From an uncultured Olsenella sp. (GTDB lineage: Bacteria; Actinomycetota; Coriobacteriia; Coriobacteriales; Atopobiaceae), in assembly GCA_949291295.1 (NCBI GenBank), contig CASEVE010000003.1, positions 1 to 64,000 of the forward strand: 64,000 nt of DNA, read 5' to 3'. A program made the position numbers and the translations under genes. Shown in pieces: positions 30,674 through 45,085 of this stretch (positions within the stretch are counted from its first letter, which is position 1; every line of letters starts with the position of its first letter). A model generated the notes under the pieces. The model worked only from the letters and a program-made list of their open reading frames with translations. It made no database searches and was not told the origin of the DNA.

Positions 30674-31929
30674 CAGACGGCAAGGACTCCTGGAAGCTCA
30701 AGCTCGCGTGCGTGTGGAGCGGCGAGCTGGTCTCGGTGCTTACGAGCTCCATTTTGCAGATGGGCTTTGTCTGGCACATCACGCTCACGACGAACTCGGC
30801 GAGCATGCTCTCTCTGGCGTCGCTCGAGGGCTTCCTGCCGCTGGCGCTCTTCGGTACCTTCGCGGGGACTATCGTGGACCGCTTGCCGCTCAGGGTCACG
30901 CTCATCGGCGCCGACCTCTTCATCGCGGCGGTGAGCGCCGTCGTTGCGATGGTGTCGCTCACGGGATCGCTCCCCGTGTGGGTGGTCATGGTCGCGCTCT
31001 TCGTGCGGGCCATTGGCGGCGCCTTCCACACGCCGGCCTTCCAAGCGCTCACGCCGCTCGTCGCTCCGGCCGTGCACCTCACGCGCCTCGCGGGTGTAAC
31101 GCAGGCCGTCCAGTCCGGAGGCTACATTCTCGGGACGGCCGCCGCGGCGGTGATCTACCCGCTCTGGGGGCTCACGGCGATGATCGCGCTCGACGTGGCG
31201 GGTGCGCTCTTTGCCACGGTTTCGGTGCTGGCGGCGCGGCTCGACGTGGGCGGCGCCGTCCAGGGCGCGACAGCGGGCGAGAGGAACTTGGGTCTCGTAG
31301 CCCAGGCGCGCGCCCTCGCCGCCGAGACCGCCGACGGTTACCGTGTCCTTCACGGCTATCGCGGCCTCTTCGCTCTGCTCTGGTGCGGCTTTGTCTTCAC
31401 GTTGGTCTTCTCGCCCATCTCGGCGCTCTTTCCGCTTATGACGCTCGACCACTTCGGCGGCACCACAGGCGACGCCGCAACGGCGGAGATCGTGTTCTCG
31501 GTGGGCATGATCGCGGGCTCCGCGCTGCTCGCCGCGTGGGGCGGCTTCAGGAACCGCGCACTCACCGTCGTCGCCGCGACGGCGCTCTACGGCGTGGCCA
31601 CGCTCGTGGCGGGTCTGCTTGGGGCGGGCGGCTTCGTGGCGTTTCTCGCCATGAGCTTCCTCATGGGTTTGAGCTCGCCGTTCTACTCCGGACCGCAGAC
31701 CGCCCTCATGCAGGAGAAGGTCCCGCCCGAGTACCTGGGGCGCGTCTTCGGTCTCTACGGCGCCATCGTGTCCTGGGCGATGCCGCTGGGGCTGGCGTTC
31801 TCGTCGCTCTTTGCGGATGCGGTGGGCGCGCCCGCGTGGTTTGTGGGTGCCGGTGCCGCGATGGTCCTTCTCGCGTGCGTGACCTGGGCAATCCCCGCCA
31901 TCCGCCGCATCGAGGCTGCCCGGGCATGA
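30670..31929 (+). CDS. Major facilitator superfamily transporter
   Basis: The 419-residue protein has twelve predicted helices and the EntS/MFS_3-type pattern. The N-terminus is WKLKLACVWSGELVSVLTSS, the loop after helix 2 carries LFGTFAGTIVDRLPLRVTL (motif A variant), and a late EYLGRVFGLYGAIVSWAMPL is conserved in this group. It is probably a proton-driven exporter. Its ATG overlaps the response regulator stop codon, so it is co-translated with the signalling pair. This ties it to the same stress or drug response. Confidence 0.88.
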   Translation: MTDGKDSWKLKLACVWSGELVSVLTSSILQMGFVWHITLTTNSASMLSLASLEGFLPLALFGTFAGTIVDRLPLRVTLIGADLFIAAVSAVVAMVSLTGSLPVWVVMVALFVRAIGGAFHTPAFQALTPLVAPAVHLTRLAGVTQAVQSGGYILGTAAAAVIYPLWGLTAMIALDVAGALFATVSVLAARLDVGGAVQGATAGERNLGLVAQARALAAETADGYRVLHGYRGLFALLWCGFVFTLVFSPISALFPLMTLDHFGGTTGDAATAEIVFSVGMIAGSALLAAWGGFRNRALTVVAATALYGVATLVAGLLGAGGFVAFLAMSFLMGLSSPFYSGPQTALMQEKVPPEYLGRVFGLYGAIVSWAMPLGLAFSSLFADAVGAPAWFVGAGAAMVLLACVTWAIPAIRRIEAARA

Positions 31930-34100: not shown

Positions 34101-34131
34101 ATCAAATGGGGGGGAGACCCCTTTTGGATTA
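34098..34131. repeat. Degenerate dispersed palindrome between convergent genes
   Basis: The sequence corresponds to the element at 12280-12314 (TGATTCAAAAGGGG...CCCCTTTTGAATCA) but with several mismatches. It overlaps the stop codons of tag and of the convergent gene at 34129, the same placement as at 12280. Confidence 0.75.
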
Positions 34132-35283
34132 CTTGTTTTCCACTCCTAGGACTGACTCAACAAGCTCGGGCGGCAGCACGGCATCGTGCAGCTCGGGCGA
34201 CCATGTCCCGTATATGCAGCGGACATGCTCGAGCTGGGTCTTCCTGGGCTCGACTTCGAGCTCCTTGCGCGCCTGGGCGTCCAGTGCCTCGCACTCCTGC
34301 AGGCAGCGTTTGAGGTCGATCTCCCCGCGGGAGAAGCGGCTCAGCGGCTCAAGCTTTCGCTCAAAGCCACCGAGCTCCCCGTCGTACGGCTCCAGCGAGA
34401 GAAGGTCGTGAAAGCCGCCGCGGAACCACACGACGCCGTCCACCTCGTCAACCCAGTGCCCGCGGACCAGCATGTCCGTGTAGTCGCCGCGCTCCTTCCG
34501 GAGCCGGAGAATCCTTGCGTCGTCATCCCGCGCCGGGTCGAGCGTCGCATCGTGATTGAGGACAAAGTGGCTCTCGTCACCGTAGATGCGGGAATGGTGC
34601 ACAAGAATGTCGCCCCGCTTGAACGGAAGCGGGAAGTTGAACCACATATCCTCAAAGCCCGGACAGAGTATGTCCTTCTCCTCTTGGGTCAGACGGGGCG
34701 ATCGATCGTCGACAAAGGAAATGGGCTCCAGGTCCGGCGAGACCAGCACGCTCACGTCGCTGTCGTAGTCCTCTTCGTCGGAGTCGTCGGCAAAGTATCG
34801 CTTGGTGAGGATGAACCGGTCGTCCTTGAGCCCCCAGTCCTCCTCGTCGATGCAGTCGCGCAGCTTGCGGATTGCCCTCTCGAACGACGGGCGCACGTAC
34901 GCGTCGTACCTATAGCGGACCTTGCGCTTCTGGACGATCCAGCAACAGGCCTCTCCGGGTTCCGATGAGCGGAGGTCGTCCAGAAGCTGCTCCTCGATTC
35001 GCATGTACGCCTCAAGGAACGCGTGGAGGCTCCCGCCCGCGAGATACAGCATGTGCTTGGGAAAGATGGCGTCCGGCGTGGTCTCGATGAGACTGCGCCA
35101 TGCGGCGTGCTTCTCGGCAATCGTGCGTTTGTGACTGTTCCAGATGATGAAGGACGCCTCGATGGGAGGCGGGTTCCAGCCAATCTTCTCCCAGTGAGCG
35201 CGAACGGCAGGGGAGTCGATAAAGTCGAGGACGTCGAGAGGTTGCCCGCTCTCTGTAAAGTCTGCCGGGTTTAACGAGTCCAT
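34129..35283 (-). CDS. Unrecognised protein, paralogue A of a three-member family
   Basis: The 384-residue acidic protein has no signal peptide or membrane helix and matches nothing I know. It shares a layout with the products of 41617-42717 and 42714-43721. The N-terminus has IDSPAVRAHWEK, then EASFIIWNSHKRTIAEKHAAW and TTPD. The middle has PLPFKRGDILV. The end has SRFSRGEIDL. A very acidic run (ADDSDEEDYDSD) sits mid-protein. The start ATG at 35283 follows GGAGCAAAC. It converges on tag. The conserved PFxxGDI and RGEIDL motifs may mark an OB-like or SH3-like core, which is speculation. Confidence 0.75.
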   Translation of the reverse strand: MDSLNPADFTESGQPLDVLDFIDSPAVRAHWEKIGWNPPPIEASFIIWNSHKRTIAEKHAAWRSLIETTPDAIFPKHMLYLAGGSLHAFLEAYMRIEEQLLDDLRSSEPGEACCWIVQKRKVRYRYDAYVRPSFERAIRKLRDCIDEEDWGLKDDRFILTKRYFADDSDEEDYDSDVSVLVSPDLEPISFVDDRSPRLTQEEKDILCPGFEDMWFNFPLPFKRGDILVHHSRIYGDESHFVLNHDATLDPARDDDARILRLRKERGDYTDMLVRGHWVDEVDGVVWFRGGFHDLLSLEPYDGELGGFERKLEPLSRFSRGEIDLKRCLQECEALDAQARKELEVEPRKTQLEHVRCIYGTWSPELHDAVLPPELVESVLGVENK

Positions 35284-35411: not shown

Positions 35412-35510
35412 ATGTGCGACGCAGATGCTGAGAAGGACTTCGATTACATCGAGGCAGCGGAAGAGTTCATGGACGAGTATGCGGACGTCTTTGAGGAGCT
35501 GGCCGGATGA
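35412..35510 (+). CDS. Short Doc-partner antitoxin (32 residues)
   Basis: The frame encodes 32 residues, MCDADAEKDFDYIEAAEEFM then DEYADVFEELAG. It ends in an ATGA overlap with the Doc toxin gene, and GAGAAGGA precedes the ATG. The acidic helix resembles the toxin-binding tail of Phd-type antitoxins, without the DNA-binding part. It may be a natural mini-antitoxin or the truncated end of a longer one; the frame is open further upstream to a TTG at 35385. The 35284-35411 stretch holds nothing else. Confidence 0.6.
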   Translation: MCDADAEKDFDYIEAAEEFMDEYADVFEELAG

Positions 35511-35893
35511 CGGGGCCGCTCTCCAGAGAGGTTGCCTTAGCTCTGCACGGGCGCGCTATCGAGCGGTTTGGTGGTTCGCGGGGTGTGAGGGACGCGGGTC
35601 TGCTTGACGCGGCGCTTGCGCAACCCTGGCAAACCTTCGGCGGCGTCGAGCTTTATCCGACCCCAGAGGAGAAGATCGCACGCCTGTGCTTCGAGGTTGT
35701 GACCCAGCATCCGTTCGTTGACGGTAACAAGCGTGCTGGTGCGCTTCTTCTCGGCGTGCTTCTCCGCGGGGAGGGGTATGCGTTCAGGCCCGCTGCGAGC
35801 GACCTTCTCCACGCCATCGTGGGCGTTGCCGCTGGGTCAAAGGGTTATCAGGAGCTCCTCGGTTTTGTACGGCAAGAGACGGGTGAAAGGTGA
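35507..35893 (+). CDS. Doc-family (Fic fold) toxin
   Basis: The 128-residue protein has the Fic/Doc core motif HPFVDGNKRAG near residues 68-78 and the Doc-type N-terminus with GGSRGVRDAGLLDAALAQP. Doc proteins phosphorylate elongation factor EF-Tu and stop translation. All motif residues (H, D/N, N, K, R) are present. It overlaps its short upstream partner by 4 bases. The phosphoribosyltransferase-like gene begins 4 bases after its stop, so that gene is probably co-transcribed. Confidence 0.88.
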   Translation: MTGPLSREVALALHGRAIERFGGSRGVRDAGLLDAALAQPWQTFGGVELYPTPEEKIARLCFEVVTQHPFVDGNKRAGALLLGVLLRGEGYAFRPAASDLLHAIVGVAAGSKGYQELLGFVRQETGER

Positions 35894-35897
35894 GCTC

Positions 35898-36719
35898 ATG
35901 GCTGCTCAGGGGAACAACTATCGCATCGCCGCTCGCGTGACGGTGGAAAATGGCGTCAAACAGTACCACTGGGACATCGAGAGTCTCATGAGCGTCGCCG
36001 ACCTTTGCGCGCCGACGCTGGTGCGGGACGAGTTCAAGGGAAGAGCCTACTGGTTTGGCTATGAGTTCAGGCCGGACTCTCATCCCCTCGACCGTCGGGC
36101 GTTTCTCGAGGACATCAAGGGGCTGGGGCAGAACGTCATTCCGGAGGGCTATCTCAGGAAGTTCATCAACGCGCCGCTTGCGCTGCTGAACGAGCAGGTA
36201 AACCTGGTAACGATCGACTTCTTTGTGTACCCCGTCTCGGGGCGGAGCCCGCTCGTCAACAAGATGATTGAGCAGGTCGACGAGTGGACTTCACATGAGA
36301 TCGAGGGCGTCTCGCTGGAGCTTGTGAAGCGACCTCCCTCGGAGATTGGCTTTGACTGGGAGAAGTTCGACCGGCGTTATGCGCCCACGAACAATCATGG
36401 CTATGACAACCGGTACCACCAGATGAGGACCTACGTTGAGAACGAGCTTCTCCCGTCAATCCGCGCGGGGGAGTACTTCTCGCTGTCAAAGGTGGTCAAG
36501 ATGAGGTACCGCCCCTACATCATGAACTTCCTTGAGTTCAATAAAGAGCAGGTCAAACAGTATGAGAAGCTGCACGACGCGCATGGGGCCCGCGTGTTGG
36601 TGGTCGACGACGTCAACACGTCCGGATTGACGCTGAACGAGATTCTTCGCATGCTCGGCAAGCTCAACCCGAGCCTGGAGGTGTACGTGTTCACGCTGGT
36701 TGGGAGGCCGGAGTCGTGA
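35898..36719 (+). CDS. Phosphoribosyltransferase-like protein
   Basis: The 273-residue protein ends in a type I PRTase signature, VLVVDDVNTSGLTLNEI (about 232-248), the PRPP-binding loop. The first 200 residues are not like any biosynthetic PRTase I recognise: FVYPVSGRSPLVNKMIEQVD, then FDRRYAPTNNHGYDNRYHQM. It follows the Doc gene at 4 bases and precedes a macro-domain gene, so the neighbourhood suggests nucleotide or NAD/ADP-ribose chemistry in a stress or defence setting (inference). A decayed copy of its last ~30 codons lies beyond the macro gene at 37407-37499. The start ATG follows AAAGGTGAG. Confidence 0.8.
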   Translation: MAAQGNNYRIAARVTVENGVKQYHWDIESLMSVADLCAPTLVRDEFKGRAYWFGYEFRPDSHPLDRRAFLEDIKGLGQNVIPEGYLRKFINAPLALLNEQVNLVTIDFFVYPVSGRSPLVNKMIEQVDEWTSHEIEGVSLELVKRPPSEIGFDWEKFDRRYAPTNNHGYDNRYHQMRTYVENELLPSIRAGEYFSLSKVVKMRYRPYIMNFLEFNKEQVKQYEKLHDAHGARVLVVDDVNTSGLTLNEILRMLGKLNPSLEVYVFTLVGRPES

Positions 36720-36784
36720 GTGGGCAACGTCGGCTGTGACGGCGTTCTATTCATCGACAAAACCGCGAACATAGGAGTATGACA

Positions 36785-37369
36785 ATGAATCTACCCAAGA
36801 TTTATCTTCTCAGCATCAGCCTAAACATGGTGGATGCGTGGAACGATGCTTTCGAAGGCGAGCCGAACGTCATCATCGCCCACGATGACTTAGCGAGGTT
36901 CATGGACAAACATCCTGCGGTTGACTGCATCGTGTCACCGGCGAGCTCTTACGGGCTTATGGATGGGGGCTACGATTACGCGATAACAAAATACTTCGGT
37001 AAGGAGCTCATGCGTGCCGTGCAGAGCAGGATACTTGATGCGTGGTTTGGAGAACAACCTGTTGGTACGAGCATCTCCGTCAAGCATAAAGGGATTACGC
37101 TTATCCATACCCCAACGATGCGCGTTCCCTCAACGATTGTCGACCCTATGGTCGTCTACCATAGCATGCGCTCGACTATGATTGAGGCACTGCGCGATAA
37201 TGTGAGGATCATGGTTGTTCCCGCGTTTGGTGCAGGTTGCGGAATGCTGCCATTTGATGTTGTGGCCACGCTTATAGCTGCAGCGTATCGGCAGGTAGCG
37301 GATCCGCCTACAGGCATTAACTGGGAATACGCCACCTCGCGATTGCTTCCCGATGGAGAACGCAATTGA
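36785..37369 (+). CDS. Macro-domain protein
   Basis: The 194-residue protein looks like a single macro domain. An N-terminal strand (KIYLLSISLNMVDAWNDAF) leads to DCIVSPASSYGLMDGGYDYA, the equivalent of the NAAN/GGVD ADP-ribose loop, and IMVVPAFGAGCGMLPFDVVA is the phosphate-binding GxGxG-type loop. Macro domains bind or hydrolyse ADP-ribose or related nucleotides. AGGAG lies 8 bases before the ATG at 36785. It sits between the phosphoribosyltransferase-like gene and a broken duplicate of that gene's end. Hydrolase activity is plausible but not shown by sequence alone. Confidence 0.8.
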   Translation: MNLPKIYLLSISLNMVDAWNDAFEGEPNVIIAHDDLARFMDKHPAVDCIVSPASSYGLMDGGYDYAITKYFGKELMRAVQSRILDAWFGEQPVGTSISVKHKGITLIHTPTMRVPSTIVDPMVVYHSMRSTMIEALRDNVRIMVVPAFGAGCGMLPFDVVATLIAAAYRQVADPPTGINWEYATSRLLPDGERN

Positions 37370-37576: not shown

Positions 37577-37588
37577 AAAGGGGTGCCT

Positions 37589-38065
37589 ATGTCTGTTCTG
37601 GAAGATGTTCTCAGAGAGGAATATGCCCGCTCCTTGCGACTTAGCCACCTTATGGAGAGGGAACTTGCCTCGCTTCCAAAGGGTAGTGTTCGCGTTCGGG
37701 TGATTCGCGGACGGGAATACTACTACCTCAATCACCGCGAGGGTGACAGAGTGATCTCTGACTACATCTCCGCCTCCAAGGTTGAAGCTGTCCGCGCCAT
37801 GGTCGCCCGTCGCAAAGAGCTAAAAGCGGCGCTAAAGGAGCAGGAGCGCTCTCGCAAGCAGATTGAGCGTGCGCTTGGAGGGAGGCTGGATGTCAACGTG
37901 CTGAAGGAGGGTGGTGCTCGTGATAGCGCTGCTTTTTTCGGCCGTTTTCGGTTGAGTGAGATCGAGGCGCGAGCGTCAAATCTCGAGGCGCGCTATGAGG
38001 CAGAGCATGGAATAGGCGAGAAGTTCCAGAGCGTCGAAGACCTCATGGCGGATATCAATGATTAA
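37589..38065 (+). CDS. Unrecognised protein, putative antitoxin/partner gene
   Basis: The 158-residue charged protein begins EDVLREEYARSLRLSHLMER, then ELASLPKGSVRVRVIRGREY YYLNHR in two strands, a helix-rich coiled part (about 70-100) and an acidic C-terminus. I recall similar proteins preceding nucleotidyltransferase or toxin genes but cannot name the family. It overlaps the YafQ-like gene by 8 bases, has the inverted repeat upstream, and is intact while the toxin gene is frameshifted. This fits the antitoxin role by position only. Confidence 0.6.
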   Translation: MSVLEDVLREEYARSLRLSHLMERELASLPKGSVRVRVIRGREYYYLNHREGDRVISDYISASKVEAVRAMVARRKELKAALKEQERSRKQIERALGGRLDVNVLKEGGARDSAAFFGRFRLSEIEARASNLEARYEAEHGIGEKFQSVEDLMADIND

Positions 38066-38338
38066 GTCAATTCTCCGTACCCCGCGCTTCAAGCGCGACT
38101 ACAAGGCGCCGGTCAAGGGGCACTACAACATGGGTCTCTTCGAGGCGGTGGTAAGGATGCTTGTCGCTCAAGATGCAGATGTGCTGAAAACCCGCTGCTG
38201 CAATCATGCGCTCAAGGGCGAGTGGAGTGGGTGCCGCGAGCTGCACATCTCAGGCGACTGGCTCTGATTCACCGCATCAACAAAGACGAACTTCAGCTCG
38301 TACTCACTCGTACGGGTTCGCACGACGAGTTGTTCTGG
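38058..38338 (+). pseudogene. YafQ/RelE-type toxin, frameshifted
   Basis: The first frame (38058-38267) gives a YafQ-like start (SILRTPRFKRDYKAPVKGHY) and the conserved NHALKGEWSGCRELHISGDW, then stops. The remaining part is in the next frame: LALIHRINKDELQLVLTRTG, then SHDELF. One missing base near 38265 explains both. The histidine before DELF, part of the YafQ active site, is lost from the truncated 69-residue product. It is probably an inactivated mRNA interferase, or a sequencing error to be checked. Confidence 0.75.
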
Positions 38339-38365
38339 GTTGCTCCTCTGGGTTTATCTGTCCCG

Positions 38366-39781
38366 CTAGGAACCTACCTGTTCGTTATCCTCGCTCTGAT
38401 ACGCCGTGCCTCCATTCATAATGAGATCATCAACGAGTCGTGTGATGGTCAAGCAGTGGGAGAAAGGATTGGATTCCATCGGTTGAGGTTCGATGCTTTT
38501 GAGCTGCCTGAAGAGGTTGGTATATTGTTGGCAGCTTGCATACCGCAGTCGCTTGACGATAAAACGACTGAACGCTAGCTCTCGGGCGGCATGTTTATAG
38601 TAGTCCTCGAATTTACCTTTCTCCTTTTTGCTTAGGTTGCAATAATACTGCTCGTAGGTAGAGGAGTCTTCCCCTGTCATGGCGTTTGCTTCTGGATGGG
38701 CTGATTCGGAAAACCCTTTGAAAGTGGTCGCGAGCTTGGGAGTCCTGCTTGCAGAGATGGAATCATAGATGAAGAAGGCCTTCGGATAGTAGAAGTGGAG
38801 GAGCTTGCTTGAGAAGGAGACGTTCACGCTCGGAGCCCCTTCGACGAGGAGTTTTGCACCTTTTGAGAACGCCGCCCATTGTTTAAGCTCACACTTTTTA
38901 AGATCTTCCTTGGAGGGGCTGACCCGTGTTTGAAGCCGACGTATCGTGAGGATGGTGACTGTCGCGTCCCTGAGCACGCGCGCTGCGTTAAGCGCCTTGG
39001 CGAAGTGGACGACACAGGCTGTCAAGTCGCGAATATAGTTGGCGTCTGCTTTGGAATTCGTGTCATTTTTGAGTCGTTGCTCGAAGATTATCTTGTCCGC
39101 GTCGATGGAAAGGGATTTGAGCTTTGTAAGGAACCCGTCCTTGTCGCAGAAGAGTTCCTTATGAAAGAAGCGCAGCTGTCCCTGTGCTCCCGCTACGACC
39201 TCCTTCAGGCTCTCGATGTCATCGGCGAAACTTTTAGGATGGAGACTTACATCGCTAAGTTTCACTCCTTCGTCTTCTGCCTTTGAGTTGAGGTTTTTAA
39301 TTAGCTTGGCCGCGTTCTCTTTCTCCCTTATGAGACTGTCTATCTCGCTGCCAAGCTCCTTGGACTCTCCTCGGAAATACGCCATTGAGTCTATAATGCA
39401 CTCCGGAAAGCACTCCGGCCGAAACAGGATTCGAGCGATGTCTTGGAAAAAGCTCTCGTAGCCTTCTGTTCCAAGGAAGCTCTCCCTTGGCTTGCCGGGA
39501 TGATGGTCCTTATAACCCCTTTGCTTATCTTCGCGCAAAGTGTACGAGTATCGTTCGGGAGACGCTGCATAGGCGCGCCCAATGAGCCACATCTGATTCG
39601 CAAAGATTGACTCTGCGGACGTCAGATACTTTGGATCCTTGAGGTCCTTTTTCTGTCGCTCAATTACCTCTATGTTTGGGAAGGGATTCTTCTTACAGAA
39701 AAGGTACAGAAGGTCATTTCCATTCCAAGAGTTATTCCGTTTCAGATATTCATCTATTTCGTTGAGCACGTTCTTTCCCAT
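38366..39781 (-). CDS. Unrecognised 471-residue protein, likely acquired
   Basis: I do not recognise the family. The protein is lysine-, serine- and asparagine-rich and its DNA is clearly poorer in GC than all neighbours, which points to transfer. There are no membrane helices. Residues about 145-215 look coiled-coil (LGSEIDSLIREKENAAKLIK). A later segment KLLHFYYPKAFFIYDSISA resembles a motif seen in several uncharacterised proteins of variable islands. A WYL regulator follows upstream on the same strand. A defence or stress role is possible but only by context. The ATG at 39781 follows GGAAAGG; a GTG 18 bases earlier is an alternative. Confidence 0.7.
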   Translation of the reverse strand: MGKNVLNEIDEYLKRNNSWNGNDLLYLFCKKNPFPNIEVIERQKKDLKDPKYLTSAESIFANQMWLIGRAYAASPERYSYTLREDKQRGYKDHHPGKPRESFLGTEGYESFFQDIARILFRPECFPECIIDSMAYFRGESKELGSEIDSLIREKENAAKLIKNLNSKAEDEGVKLSDVSLHPKSFADDIESLKEVVAGAQGQLRFFHKELFCDKDGFLTKLKSLSIDADKIIFEQRLKNDTNSKADANYIRDLTACVVHFAKALNAARVLRDATVTILTIRRLQTRVSPSKEDLKKCELKQWAAFSKGAKLLVEGAPSVNVSFSSKLLHFYYPKAFFIYDSISASRTPKLATTFKGFSESAHPEANAMTGEDSSTYEQYYCNLSKKEKGKFEDYYKHAARELAFSRFIVKRLRYASCQQYTNLFRQLKSIEPQPMESNPFSHCLTITRLVDDLIMNGGTAYQSEDNEQVGS

Positions 39782-39832
39782 TGCGCTGACCTTTCCCACT
39801 TGGATTGATTGTTTTCGAGCGGGCAGCCATTC

Positions 39833-40888
39833 CTATTCGTACGCCTCCGCAGCCGCATGCAGCTGCCGGCCAATCTCGTCCGCCAGGTGCTGCGGAGACA
39901 GCACCACCACGTCCGGGGCGTTGCTGCGGCCAAAGCGGATCATGGCGCTCTCGTTCACGTAGGCCTCAACATCCACGTGGTCGTCCGCCTCGTTGAAGAA
40001 GCGCACGCCGTCGCCGAAGATGTCGACGATGTCGCCGGCCATGCGCCGCACGATCCTAAACGTCACGCGCACGGTGCCGCCGGCGTACATGTGGATGTGC
40101 TCGCGCATGTACTTGCCGAGGTCGAGGTTCTTGTCGCCAGCCTTGCCGAGGGAGCTGAACGGCTTGCCACGCTCGTCAAGGATCTCCAGGTCCATGATGC
40201 GGTCGATTCGGTAGTTGGTGATGTCGTCGTACTTGTCGTAGTTGCAGATGAGGTAGTACTTCCCCTCGTTGACGGCCATCTGGTAGGGCGTGCACACGTA
40301 GACGCGCTCGGTTCCGTCGGGGCGGCAGCGTGGGTGCGCCTTCTTGTCAGTGCCGATGGAGAGGTATTTGAAGGAGACCTTCCGCTTGCGGCTGATGGAC
40401 TCGTCGAGTAGCTCGATGGTGTAGAAGAGCTGCTTGTTGTCCGTGCGGTCCTTGGGCATTGCGTTCACGTGCGTCATGTGTGACTTGAAGTACACGCTCG
40501 AGAGGTCCTCGAGCTTGCCGATTAGGGCCTTGCGCTGCGAGGGCGAGATGTGGCGTGAGAACAAAAGGCCGTCGATGAGCAGGCGCAGCTCGGCGTCCGT
40601 GAAGTCGCGCTCGAGATAGTAGTCAGTGACGATGTTTGCCGAGCGTTCCTCGCCGGTCTTGGGGTCGCGCGTTGTGCGCGGAACCTCGCGGTAGCCAATC
40701 GCGTAGCCCTCGTCGATAAGGTCGGCGATGTTGCGGGCAACGGCCTTTCGGTCCGCTTTCATGCCGAACTTGCTCTCCAGGAGGTCGATGATGTCCTTCT
40801 GACTAAGCCGGTGCCCGGTGTCCGAGTACTTCCGCAAGATCTCGAGGATGTCCATGATGAGCATCTTCTTTGGCTGCTTTGGGTTCAT
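39833..40888 (-). CDS. WYL-domain transcriptional regulator
   Basis: The 351-residue protein has an N-terminal winged helix (MDILEILRKYSDTGHRLSQK, then a recognition region with DRKAVARNIADLIDEG). A WYL domain (about 165-255) has FKYLSIGTDKKAH and VCTPYQMAVNEGKYYLICNY, then the YRIDRI motif and a C-terminal WCX extension. WYL proteins bind oligonucleotides or other ligands and often sit in phage-defence regions. The ATG at 40888 (MNPKQPKK) lacks a strong ribosome site; a slightly longer N-terminus is possible. Confidence 0.88.
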   Translation of the reverse strand: MNPKQPKKMLIMDILEILRKYSDTGHRLSQKDIIDLLESKFGMKADRKAVARNIADLIDEGYAIGYREVPRTTRDPKTGEERSANIVTDYYLERDFTDAELRLLIDGLLFSRHISPSQRKALIGKLEDLSSVYFKSHMTHVNAMPKDRTDNKQLFYTIELLDESISRKRKVSFKYLSIGTDKKAHPRCRPDGTERVYVCTPYQMAVNEGKYYLICNYDKYDDITNYRIDRIMDLEILDERGKPFSSLGKAGDKNLDLGKYMREHIHMYAGGTVRVTFRIVRRMAGDIVDIFGDGVRFFNEADDHVDVEAYVNESAMIRFGRSNAPDVVVLSPQHLADEIGRQLHAAAEAYE

Positions 40889-40971
40889 GGCGTCCCCGCT
40901 CTCCGAGAGGCCTGCTTTCCACAAGTATAGGAAGTGGCCATTGGGGGAGGGAACGCCATCCCTGAGTGGCC

Positions 40972-41496
40972 TCAGTCGAGGCTCCAGTCGGCGGGAAGCA
41001 GTGGCATGAGCATGTCGTCAGGGTCGTAGAGGTCAATCGTGACCTCGTTGTTGTCCTGGTCGAGCACAACGATCTTCTTGTCGGAGATCTCGCCGTCAAC
41101 CGGAACCCAGTTCGTGACGGCCTGCATGCAGATTGCCTCCGTGAGGAGCTGCGCGGCGCGGATGTACTCGGCGACCCTTCCGGAGAACTCGTCGAGCGGG
41201 GCGTCGGCAAACTCCCTCATCACGGCTACGAGATGGGCGCTCCTCTTGGGGAGGCTCTCCTCTTGTGCGTGCTCGATGAGCTCATCGATGGCAAAGAGGG
41301 CCATGTCCTCAAAGAGCGAGGAGTCAAAGCCGCCGTGGCGCAGGGAGTCGACCATCAAACGCCAGTAGTTCCACCAGCCATGTCTGTTCGCCTCTTCTTC
41401 GTAGCGGCCGGGCATCAGGACGAGGACACTGAGGGTGATGTCGTGGTCCTCGTTGTCTGCCGTGGGCTGGTCCGGTGCCTGCTTCTCATTGCACAT
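40972..41496 (-). CDS. Hypothetical acidic protein
   Basis: The 174-residue protein is acidic and soluble. It has a central helical part (DSSLFEDMALFAIDELIEHA) and a C-terminal strand-rich part (KIVVLDQDNNEVTIDLYDPD). No family is recognised. GAGAAGGAC precedes the ATG. It lies between the WYL regulator and the second member of the unknown paralogous family and could belong to either group. Confidence 0.65.
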   Translation of the reverse strand: MCNEKQAPDQPTADNEDHDITLSVLVLMPGRYEEEANRHGWWNYWRLMVDSLRHGGFDSSLFEDMALFAIDELIEHAQEESLPKRSAHLVAVMREFADAPLDEFSGRVAEYIRAAQLLTEAICMQAVTNWVPVDGEISDKKIVVLDQDNNEVTIDLYDPDDMLMPLLPADWSLD

Positions 41497-41616
41497 GTCC
41501 TTCTCGCCTTCTTTCGATGTTTGCGTTTAGTCCGCAGGATAGAGAGCTGTATGCGTCAATTTAGACCCATGTTGGGCGATAGGCTGGGCGCAAGCAGAGT
41601 AGGAGGAAGGGACACC

Positions 41617-42717
41617 ATGGACATCTATTCGTTTTTCAACTCGCGTGACGTCGCCGACTATCTGCGTGGCGAGAAGCACGAGTTCACCGCTGCCGAGGCG
41701 GCGTACGTCGTCTATCGCTCAGAGACGGCGACTCTCGACGAGAAGCTCTCCGCCTGGCAGGAGATCGTGGACACCATGCCCGACTGCCCGGTATGTCGCT
41801 CTGCGCTGGACCCCCATTTCAGAAGGGACTATAAGAGCGAGCATCAGTTTCTAAGGGAATACATCTTCATCAAGAAGCTCATGCTGAGGAAGTTCATGGA
41901 CGATGAGGGTGGCGTCTATATGCTGCATGAGCTCCGGTTTACCCCAGAGACGGCCATTCGCTACGGCAGGGACGAGCACTCGCTTTGGACCGAGGGGGTG
42001 TCTGATCCTTACTCGAGCTTTGACAAGTGCGTTGACAGCCTGCGCCATGATGACGAGGGTGCACCGGAGTACGATCGCTATCGCATCGCGAAGTGCGAGA
42101 TTGACGGAGGATGCACGGCGGGATGCGTCACTCTTGACGAGCAGTTCCGCGTGCTTGGCGTCACGTGCTCCCATCGTGACGCCTCCGATTACGAGTACGT
42201 AGACGCACATCTATGCTGTGCATTTCTCGAGCTTCCCATTCCGTTCAAGAGCGGGGACATCGTCATCGACCGCACGGCGCGCGACCCGCGGCCGTTTGTG
42301 TTCGACTGCCTGAAGTTCTGGGACTCTGCCGCGCTTGCCGAGCATGGCCACGTGCTCAGCGCGGAACAAGCCGAGAAGGCCGACAAGCACGTTGCCAACT
42401 GGCGCGCGAAAGGGTCCAAGGACGATTCCTGCATGCCGGCGATGGGCTGGTCGCTGGCGCCTGGCTCCATGACCGGCTTGAGTGATCCGTGCTTTCTGGC
42501 ATACGATCCCTTTGGAGCCTGCCATAACTATCTTGACCTTGAGTATTATCGCGAGCCGCTCAAGGGCGAGCTGCGCCTGCTTGAGGTTGCCTCCCGGTGG
42601 GCGCGTGGCGAGATAGACCTCGTCTTTGCGGTTAATAATGCCGCCTTGATCTCTGCGGAGACTAGAGCGGCAAAGCTTCGCTCGGAGATGGAGCGGGAGT
42701 ACCGGGAGGGTATCTAG
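41617..42717 (+). CDS. Unrecognised protein, paralogue B of a three-member family
   Basis: The 366-residue protein shares motif order with the product of 34129-35283: FFNSRDVADYL, EAAYVVYRSETATLDEKLSAW and TMPD at the N-terminus, LPIPFKSGDIVID in the middle, and EVASRWARGEIDLVF at the end. It also has paired cysteines (CPVCRSAL; GGCTAGC) not shared with paralogue A. AGGAGGAAG precedes the ATG. Its stop codon shares CTAG with the convergent third paralogue, so the two genes form a tail-to-tail pair. Function unknown. Confidence 0.75.
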   Translation: MDIYSFFNSRDVADYLRGEKHEFTAAEAAYVVYRSETATLDEKLSAWQEIVDTMPDCPVCRSALDPHFRRDYKSEHQFLREYIFIKKLMLRKFMDDEGGVYMLHELRFTPETAIRYGRDEHSLWTEGVSDPYSSFDKCVDSLRHDDEGAPEYDRYRIAKCEIDGGCTAGCVTLDEQFRVLGVTCSHRDASDYEYVDAHLCCAFLELPIPFKSGDIVIDRTARDPRPFVFDCLKFWDSAALAEHGHVLSAEQAEKADKHVANWRAKGSKDDSCMPAMGWSLAPGSMTGLSDPCFLAYDPFGACHNYLDLEYYREPLKGELRLLEVASRWARGEIDLVFAVNNAALISAETRAAKLRSEMEREYREGI

Positions 42718-43721
42718 CGAGAGCTGAGTACTCCGCGCAGCGCCTCTTCTCCGATACAGCCATTATCGTGCAGCAAGACGTCATGGAGAGCGTCCCAAAG
42801 CTCGCCGCCCTTCTCGGCGCTTCCGTTGAGAAGGGCCGCAGTCTCGAGAAGCGCGGAATCGGCATTGGCTTCGTTGGCCGGATCATCGAGCCTTCTGATG
42901 TTGTAGAGCGGAGAGTAGCGGTGGAGCGCTGCCTCGCCTCTGGCCAGGTGCTTGAGGGCGCACAGGTCGAAGTGCCCCTTGGCGTTGCGGTAGAGAACTT
43001 GGGGCCAGCAGCAATCCGTGACGTCCTCGCGCTCCGGCTCCACGATTACCGCGACGTACTCCTCGGTAAAGGGCCTGCAGCGGAAGGCAACGACGTCGCC
43101 TGCTGCGTACGGGGTGCGAAGGTTGAGGTCCGAGAACGGTTCGCGCTCGCGCCGCCAGTAGTGGTAGGCGGCGTCAAAGTAGTTCTTCTCGAAGTAGCAG
43201 ACCTCGCTGTCTATGAGGTAGAACGTATAAGGGTTGGTGAAGGTGCGCCTGCTGTTGTTGCCGCGCTCTTGGCGCCACTTCTCGAGGACGAACCAGTGGG
43301 GGATGCTGGGGTTGAGGTCGTCTGGCTGGTTGTAGTATGCGGCAATCCAGGCGAGGGCGTCATCGATCGACGCGAACACACCCGAGAAGTCCTCGTCCCA
43401 CTCGTCGTCGGGGGTGAGCTCGCAGCAGTCGAGCAGACAGAGGAATTCGTCGTCGCTGATCGTGGTTGCCTCTTCGAAGGCGCGGTGGTGCTCTGCTAGT
43501 TGATGGACGGCCGAGCGAACGCCTTCCGGCTCGCTCGGGCTGCAGGGGGTGAGCGCCTCAAAGGCTTCGATTTTGGTGCTTAACGGGACGGGGGCGTCGC
43601 GGACAAGTTCGACGAGAACGTGCGGCGACGGGGGATTGTCCGCAAGGAAGCGAGTCATGTCTTCCGATGGCATGCAAGCGTCGAGAACCTTCCTGAGTGT
43701 GGCGCTGTCAACGGTCTTCAT
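42714..43721 (-). CDS. Unrecognised protein, paralogue C of a three-member family
   Basis: The 335-residue acidic protein is more diverged. It keeps LSTKIEAFEAL in the N-terminal part, TFYLIDSEVCYFEKNYF in the middle, then RTPYAAGDVVAFR (the GD motif) and LKHLARGEAALHRY near the end. These correspond in order to the motifs of paralogues A and B. AGGGG lies 6 bases before the ATG at 43721. It is tail-to-tail with paralogue B. The role is unknown; multiple divergent copies in one region recall immunity or effector families, but nothing proves this. Confidence 0.7.
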   Translation of the reverse strand: MKTVDSATLRKVLDACMPSEDMTRFLADNPPSPHVLVELVRDAPVPLSTKIEAFEALTPCSPSEPEGVRSAVHQLAEHHRAFEEATTISDDEFLCLLDCCELTPDDEWDEDFSGVFASIDDALAWIAAYYNQPDDLNPSIPHWFVLEKWRQERGNNSRRTFTNPYTFYLIDSEVCYFEKNYFDAAYHYWRREREPFSDLNLRTPYAAGDVVAFRCRPFTEEYVAVIVEPEREDVTDCCWPQVLYRNAKGHFDLCALKHLARGEAALHRYSPLYNIRRLDDPANEANADSALLETAALLNGSAEKGGELWDALHDVLLHDNGCIGEEALRGVLSSR

Positions 43722-44035
43722 GGCTACCCCTGTCTGTTCATGCTGGATATGGCTGTTATACAAACTTGGATGGGTTAGTTATGCCGCACCAAATCAAATT
43801 GGATTCGAGCGAACAAACGTTTCCAAATGTGCTATACTCTCACCAAGGTACGAGGGCGACAAGAGCGGCACGGAGGCCCCCAATGGTACGTGTCGGCGGG
43901 TGATCAGGGGTAACGGGGACTGGTCACACTTGTTTGTCTCGGGTGGGTTGGTACGCCCATCTTCCGGCACCCGCAAAGTCCGGAGCTCACAGTTTGTGCA
44001 GGTTTATTTGCCGTGAGTGAGACGGGGGTTCAGCT
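43722..44035 (+). promoter_or_regulatory. Intergenic region with promoter-like TATACT
   Basis: No gene is visible. A -10-like TATACT lies at 43833-43838 and the stretch to 44035 could be a long leader for the DUF1016 gene. The region around 43800 is AT-richer than its surroundings. No hairpin of the dispersed family is present. Confidence 0.4.
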
Positions 44036-45085
44036 ATGGCCGAGAAGTCCATAAAGCAGTTTGACGAGAAGAGCGACGAGCAGGTTTACGTGTCCGTTCG
44101 TGAGACGTTGGAGTCCGCGCGCGGAAAGGTAGAGCGCGCCGTCAATAGTGCCATGGTCGAGGCGTACTGGGAGATTGGGCGCCAGATCGTGGAGGCGACG
44201 GGGGAGCGCGCGGAGTACGGGAAGCACCTCCTTCAGTACTTGTCCGAGAGGTTGACGGCTGAGTATGGAAAGGGATTTACGGAGAGGAACTTGCGCCAGA
44301 TGCGTTCTTTCTATCTGGCGTTTCCAATTCGGCACACATTGTGTGCCGAATTGAGCTGGTCAATTTATCGGCGTCTAACGCGTATACCTGACCAGGAGCA
44401 GCGTGAGTTTTACATGCATGCAGCGGCCGAGGAACATTGGACGGTCCGCCAGCTCGACCACCAGATTGCAACGTTCTACCGCGAGTGCCTCCTCTCCTCG
44501 CAGGGCGAGAAGCGCGAGCTCATTCGTTCCGAGATTCAGCGCTCCGAGCCTGTGACGGCTGCGGATGACTTCATCAAGGACCCGTACGTCCTGGACTTCC
44601 TGGACCTCGGCGGTCGCACCGACTTTGACGAGCATCAGCTTGAGCAGGCGCTCATGACGCGGCTGCAGGAGTTCATGCTGGAGCTGGGGCGCGGCTTCGC
44701 CTTTGTTGGACGTCAGTACCGGCTCGATGGCGAGCAGGCGAGCTACTATGTTGACCTCGTCTTCTACAACATCAAGCTCAAGTGCTACGTGCTCATCGAG
44801 CTCAAGACGCGTCCGCTTAACGCCAAGGACGTGGGGCAGATGGACTTCTACGTCCGGCTGTTCAATGAGAAGTACGCGGGTACTGACGACAACTCGACCA
44901 TCGGTCTCATCCTTTGCTCGAGCTCAGACCGAACGGTGGCGAAATACTCTGCTCTCGCCGACGGCAAGGGGCTCTTCGCGTCGAGCTATGTCACCTGCCT
45001 TCCCACCGAGGAGGAGCTGACCGATGCCCTCGAGCCCACGCGCCGCGCAATCGCGGAGGCCCGGGCGGAGCGAGAGGAAGAATAA
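44036..45085 (+). CDS. DUF1016/YhcG-type PD-(D/E)XK nuclease-like protein
   Basis: The 349-residue protein has the YhcG N-terminal helical domain (VNSAMVEAYWEIGRQIVEAT, then GFTERNLRQMRSFYLAF). Its C-terminal PD-(D/E)XK nuclease fold has YYVDLVFYNIKLKCYVLIEL then KT, giving the D-(x)n-ExK triad near residues 240-259. Members are found in restriction loci and mobile islands, and a nuclease role is expected. The sequence AEEHWTVRQLDHQI is also family-typical. The ribosome site before the ATG is weak (GGGGGTTC). It is a lone gene. Confidence 0.9.
   Translation: MAEKSIKQFDEKSDEQVYVSVRETLESARGKVERAVNSAMVEAYWEIGRQIVEATGERAEYGKHLLQYLSERLTAEYGKGFTERNLRQMRSFYLAFPIRHTLCAELSWSIYRRLTRIPDQEQREFYMHAAAEEHWTVRQLDHQIATFYRECLLSSQGEKRELIRSEIQRSEPVTAADDFIKDPYVLDFLDLGGRTDFDEHQLEQALMTRLQEFMLELGRGFAFVGRQYRLDGEQASYYVDLVFYNIKLKCYVLIELKTRPLNAKDVGQMDFYVRLFNEKYAGTDDNSTIGLILCSSSDRTVAKYSALADGKGLFASSYVTCLPTEEELTDALEPTRRAIAEARAEREEE

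Follow-up and report, generated by a model that had tools for sequence, protein, structure and literature searches.

The gene and its neighbours

The window, by which we mean the whole 64,000-nucleotide stretch of Olsenella DNA analysed here, holds on its minus strand a gene for a 471-residue protein, P0001, directly behind the gene of a WYL/WCX regulator. The features of the region are as follows:

35507-35893, Fic (Fic/Doc) gene, by Pfam
36779-37369, Macro gene, by Pfam
38060..38341, plus strand, remnant of a YafQ-like toxin gene, convergent with the P0001 gene, start approximate
38366..39781, minus strand, gene of the 471-aa protein P0001, called from its ORF and homologues, with an alternative GTG start at 39799
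38339..39828, no strand assigned, exchangeable slot, delimited by breaks in homology with genomes G014 and G236
39833..40924, minus strand, WYL/WCX transcriptional regulator gene, directly upstream of the P0001 gene and on the same strand
40972..41496, minus strand, 174-aa gene with no family match, next upstream of the WYL gene and kept in genomes G003 and G014
44036-45085, YhcG/DUF1016 nuclease gene, by Pfam and by PADLOC model PDC-S02 at 1e-124

Starting from the GTG, the ORF (38366-39799, minus strand) would encode 477 aa, and an internal ATG at 39781 gives 471 aa; a GGGAAAGG stretch about 9 nt upstream of this ATG makes it the likelier start. The sequence-only reading had placed a WYL regulator beside the gene, and Pfam agrees (WYL PF13280, E=2.2e-10; WCX, E=5e-4), with a gap between the two genes of 33 bp to the GTG or 51 bp to the ATG. 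The same reading's DUF1016 nuclease and toxin genes were also recovered nearby, the YhcG/DUF1016 and Fic genes by Pfam; the YafQ-like gene is one base shorter in the window than the intact copies in G003 and G236 and is therefore frameshifted. The 160-aa gene that precedes this remnant stays open. In the three intergenic stretches that the regulator might bind we found no inverted repeats of at least 8 bases, which is a weak negative only, and promoter-like sites at the locus do not exceed chance level.

Among other genes of the region, the Macro-domain protein adjoins a phosphoribosyltransferase-like protein (35718-36719), and no Macro gene was visible at the corresponding position of G003. 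Three further products, each of about 350-390 aa and with no significant Pfam match (34129-35283, 41551-42717 and 42714-43763), resemble one another by eye and turn up again in related Olsenella genomes, within the syntenic block.

That base composition and amino-acid use set the P0001 gene apart was borne out: of 48 mechanically chosen, non-overlapping window ORFs of at least 450 bases, some of which are surely spurious, none is lower in GC (0.495) or richer in K+N+I+F+Y (a fraction of 0.298). The GC-poor patch is wider than this one gene (GC 0.519 at 36779-37369 and 0.555 at 37583-38065), and the P0001 gene is its extreme point. Compared with its counterpart in Olsenella uli, the gene has a dN/dS of 0.43, which indicates constraint, and against the Collinsella relative described below the value is 0.19, with dS near saturation. 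The stretch 38366-39781 is a real, constrained gene.

A small family that matches no named one

The gene had been called an orphan, a label that no longer applies, since we found five relatives, making a small and patchy family of six members. These are G003, on a contig of O. uli An820 (75% identity); a protein of Collinsella sp. An268 (52%); one of Adlercreutzia caecimuris B7 (about 31%); G087, in a genome of the same family (27-29%); and one in a Clostridia MAG, where the gene runs past the contig end. Relatives occurred in 4 of 150 related genomes, 5 of 396 in the class and 3 of 276 in the phylum; within the order, matches in 6 of 395 genomes included one false one, leaving 5 (these genome sets overlap). 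The match dropped, L007 (E=0.008), sits inside a PstB-like gene, as judged by eye.

The earlier statement that no family could be named stands for PADLOC, PHROGs, NCBIfam, Pfam and the PDB sequences. P0001 hit no PADLOC family at E<=0.1 (nor did the two relatives tried), had no useful match in PHROGs and none in Pfam, and gave only flavodoxin in NCBIfam (E=0.09) and nothing credible among PDB sequences (best E=0.19). When all six members were compared with Pfam at E<=5, no match was common to two of them, and neither short motif segments of the family against Pfam nor profiles against the PDB gave a useful match. Searches of phage, plasmid and viral-contig sets found no relative of P0001, and a DNA pattern derived from the family motifs had 0 matches in IMG/VR. 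A literature search on DUF6308 found no paper.

The six proteins are held together by four motifs, GND.LY, A.qMW.IGR.Y.ASPER, SF[SC]SK.LHF..P...F..D and TR..D, the first two of which are loosened in G087. K326, H329 and D340 are invariant in all six members.

P0001 is built as a mosaic

Aligning the P0001 gene with that of O. uli divides the protein into five parts, all on the minus strand:

39422..39781, minus strand, residues 1-120, conserved block, 93-100% DNA identity with O. uli
39002..39421, minus strand, residues ~121-260, hypervariable central module, mostly 48-72% DNA identity, in-frame indels
38702..39001, minus strand, residues 261-360, second conserved block, with the SF[SC]SK.LHF..P...F..D motif
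38582..38701, minus strand, residues 361-400, second variable patch, 70-72% DNA identity, 27-nt in-frame indel
38369..38581, minus strand, residues 401-471, C-terminal conserved block, with TR..D in five of the six members

The first block carries GND.LY and A.qMW.IGR.YaASPER (as consensus, from which G087 departs in part), the central module is much shorter in Adlercreutzia, and the sixth member lacks TR..D because it is cut by its contig end. Measured over 20 codons at a time, DNA identity with O. uli runs at 0.93-1.00 through residue 120, falls abruptly to 0.48 and stays at 0.48-0.72 up to residue 260; it is 0.80-0.97 for residues 261-360, 0.70-0.72 for 361-400 and 0.87-0.92 afterwards. Synonymous divergence follows the same boundary, dS rising from 0.08 (residues 1-125) to 0.97 (residues 126-250), so the drop in identity in the centre reflects more than lost constraint, and exchange of an older allele would be its simplest reading. 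For residues 346-390, dN and dS are nearly the same (0.36 and 0.33), in an alignment that the indel makes uncertain. As a control, we took 96 aligned 100-bp segments over the syntenic stretches examined: seven fell below 75% identity, of which six lie in the P0001 gene (five of them contiguous) and one at 31201. On this pattern of divergence, P0001 is a mosaic whose middle third appears to have been exchanged between close relatives.

The WYL regulator is constant and the gene behind it varies

Of 392 genomes, 19 have a WYL orthologue at E<=1e-45; at E<=1e-60, so do 3 of the 31 same-genus genomes listed, the window's own included. Our comparison of what lies behind the regulator rests on seven WYL loci with at least 53% identity. 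Two of these (G000 and G003) have the P0001 gene, two (G014 and G036) have an unrelated protein of 336 or 329 aa (X336/X329), two (G288 and G289) have one of 281 or 273 aa, and the seventh, G236, has no same-strand gene after the WYL gene and instead a convergent PD-(D/E)XK gene (L040:5862-7046; PD-(D/E)XK_4 in Pfam, E=2.6e-8; PDC-S26 in PADLOC, E=2.9e-11). The other 12 WYL loci, at 35-50% identity, have unrelated neighbours or contig ends, and neither P0001 nor the 336-aa protein was detected at any of 15 WYL loci inspected together.

In nucleotide alignments, both G014 and G236 cease to match the window at 39829-39835, no more than about 4 bp from the WYL stop codon (39833-39835); homology returns at 38338 for G236 and at 38047 for G014. 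Taken with G236, these breaks show that the slot is almost exactly one gene, that of P0001. The WYL regulator is thus the constant part of the arrangement, and the genes behind it vary.

Pairwise comparisons among the cargo families of the slot gave nothing significant. Profiles of the alternative cargoes matched only places already known (2 of 139 genomes and 1 of 145), and searches of the alternative cargo proteins against phage and plasmid sets returned one Pseudomonas plasmid relative of X336 and otherwise none. Cargoes of the X336/X329 type (L023:8651-9661, L024:8155-9144 and L054:4488-5366) have a KPDVH motif. The Pseudomonas plasmid relative adjoins a uracil-DNA glycosylase gene.

In G014, G036 and G236 the gene immediately preceding that of the WYL regulator encodes the RNA ligase RtcB (L023:6130-7470, L024:5790-7004 and L040:3420-4667); RtcB is absent from G000, a genome about 91% complete, and from G003. 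A constant RtcB-WYL-cargo operon was considered and dropped, as RtcB occurs in these three close loci but not in the two with P0001. The portions of the literature covered appear to describe no WYL-RtcB pairing, and a literature search on the WYL domain in Coriobacteri- found no paper.

Relatives sit in unlike places

The Adlercreutzia relative is directly followed, on the same strand, by an Abi_2/AbiD gene (Pfam E=5e-24; PADLOC E=2.6e-24), and transposase and integrase-core genes lie within about 7 kb of it. P0001 itself matches neither PF07751 (Abi_2) nor the PADLOC AbiD model. In Collinsella the relative immediately follows an ISL3 transposase and has a protein kinase in its vicinity, so that transposases are found near two of the relatives. 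In G087 the relative is flanked by peptidase M32 and prismane genes, and we saw no defence gene around it; the one in the Clostridia MAG follows bacterial PH-domain genes. Also in Adlercreutzia, a 957-aa protein with many helix-turn-helix repeats (L010:3030-5903) adjoins an IS481-like gene.

The defence-type setting is real, as the YhcG gene (PDC-S02) in the window, the Abi_2/AbiD gene and the PD-(D/E)XK gene (PDC-S26) show, and the earlier interpretation is supported in part: G087 lies among metabolic genes, and only one of the four non-Olsenella relatives, that of Adlercreutzia, has a clear defence neighbour. Homologues in conserved housekeeping loci would have refuted that interpretation, and instead they occupy places unlike one another.

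Beside the four non-Olsenella relatives (L009, L010, L011 and L016) we found nothing related to the WYL regulator of the window, which suggests that the pairing of WYL and P0001 is not obligate. This bears on a rather unlikely reading in which P0001 would be the toxin-like half of a module that controls growth, held in check by the WYL protein or the 174-aa protein and serving in stress or in island maintenance, not against phages. Toxin-type genes (Fic/Doc and YafQ) do cluster here, a compact arrangement of two or three genes and a rare family would fit, and the RtcB ligase encoded before the WYL gene in three of the close loci could perhaps repair what a cargo RNase had damaged. On the other hand, P0001 comes with no linked small antitoxin-like partner; the WYL gene, as a candidate partner, accompanies it in two Olsenella genomes and was not found in the stretches covered around the other four relatives, Collinsella, Adlercreutzia and G087 among them; and RtcB is absent from precisely the two genomes that have the WYL gene with P0001 as its cargo.

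It is distinctly unlikely that P0001 is a horizontally acquired metabolic or surface gene with no defence role that stands beside the WYL gene by chance. Its low GC, the relative flanked by peptidase M32 and prismane genes, and another near protein-kinase genes, which also has capsule-like genes by eye, are all consistent with such an origin. Exchange of three unlike cargo families and a convergent nuclease-like gene through the same slot, the mosaic middle module and the Abi_2/AbiD gene adjoining one relative argue against it.

Comparison with DNA glycosylases and structure models

The serine-lysine and distal aspartate layout (S-K...D) that is invariant in the family presumably resembles that of HhH-GPD-like families. 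We therefore weighed whether P0001 could be a divergent HhH-GPD DNA glycosylase with K326 and D340 as its catalytic pair, excising modified bases from the DNA of invaders in the manner of Brig1, and consider this very unlikely. The profile of the replacement cargo in G014 and G036, built with its Pseudomonas plasmid relative, had as its sole PDB match the archaeal N-glycosylase/DNA lyase 3fhg_A (E=0.0019); the single X329 and Pseudomonas sequences had no PDB match, so that the link from X336 to 3fhg is itself only suggestive. In hhalign comparisons with five EndoIII/MutY-type proteins (three of an original eight, which lack LPG[VI]G and are probably misframed, were left out), the P0001 score was reached by 13 of 50 column-shuffled profiles, that of the G014/G036 cargo by 38 of 50 and that of the 273/281-aa cargo by 11 of 50; the positive control had a probability of 97.9. 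The P0001 result is thus noise. Furthermore, the Pfam searches gave no PF00730 match for the family, its motif region matches nothing in Pfam or the PDB, no glycine hairpin precedes the lysine, and comparison of the P0001 family with the other cargo families gave nothing significant. The glycosylase was rejected as the main reading because the hhalign scores lie within those of shuffles and the cargo families share no significant similarity. A literature search on HhH-GPD glycosylases in phage defense found no paper.

Glycosylases acting on phage bases have reportedly been described since Brig1. Brig1 is a single-protein defence that acts on modified phage DNA, and shows that a defence glycosylase exists, but it belongs to the UDG superfamily (PMC11078745). 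It offers P0001 a possible analogy only, and a glycosylase nature of P0001 is unsupported.

An AlphaFold2 model built with five sequences had a mean pLDDT of 63.6 and a pTM of 0.71, with residues 338-380 below 50, and a second, also with five sequences and with the Adlercreutzia protein placed first, was worse (pLDDT 47.3); both models are too weak to name a fold. Foldseek comparison of the first model with the PDB and BFVD gave nothing at E<=0.001. The best VIA-align match, a CasX chain (Z 5.5, rmsd 4.0, 97 aligned), was set aside as within chance for helical models.

Possible role in defence

The exchangeable slot and the mosaic protein are real findings, and the P0001 locus is a plausible but unproven defence candidate. 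The reading we lean towards, while giving it somewhat short of an even chance, is that P0001 may be the cargo, or effector, of a small conflict operon under WYL control, whose targets are most likely phages or other mobile elements. Patchy occurrence, exchange of the slot, mosaic divergence, the Abi_2/AbiD neighbour and the transposases near two relatives speak for defence. Against it stand the missing PADLOC match, the lack of a WYL gene near the non-Olsenella relatives, the place of G087 among metabolic genes, the absence of phage or plasmid copies and of inverted repeats, promoter-like sites at chance level, and the small number of close WYL loci (seven). Since mosaicism and exchange occur in surface and toxin genes too, they are no proof of defence.

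If P0001 is indeed a defence effector, the WYL protein would keep the operon low and respond to a nucleotide or nucleic acid that signals infection or DNA damage, as may be expected from its family. The short gap and shared strand suggest that P0001 would be made from the same transcript as the WYL gene. The mosaic pattern points to the variable module (residues ~121-260, perhaps with 361-400) as the part that would decide the recognition target, and the conserved blocks with W.IGR.Y.ASPER and SF.SK.LHF..P...F..D may carry the output, possibly as a nucleic-acid enzyme. A more specific version, which we regard as unlikely, is that in Coriobacteriia a WYL gene anchors a swappable immune slot, its flanks and itself being kept as unrelated effectors replace one another right behind its stop codon, and that P0001 represents a new family of single-protein receptor-effectors, with a conserved two-part catalytic scaffold, a hypervariable recognition module swapped by recombination and an undescribed fold.

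CapW is a WYL-type regulator of defence operons. Like the BrxR/CapW-type cases, the locus has a WYL-domain regulator immediately ahead of varied candidate defence genes; regulators described so far control BREX, CBASS, restriction and similar systems, whereas the P0001 cargo matches no known system. HsdS-like restriction systems exchange target-recognition domains on a conserved scaffold. P0001 likewise combines a conserved scaffold with an exchanged part, in which the middle module would be responsible for recognition, but unlike in HsdS systems its gene has no adjoining methylase or nuclease subunits. For BrxR, the published account describes repression of a defence island by this WYL regulator and places 48% of its homologues with known defence systems (PMC9122601). 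WYL domains have been predicted to be sensors of nucleotide-type ligands (PMC4012209).

On the defence reading, the mosaic module would allow a direct test of P0001 recognition, by swapping it between the two Olsenella alleles in a laboratory host. Should the defence reading prove true, effectors that scans for defence islands miss could be found by following one WYL regulator, and an unnamed effector family would be added to an understudied gut lineage.
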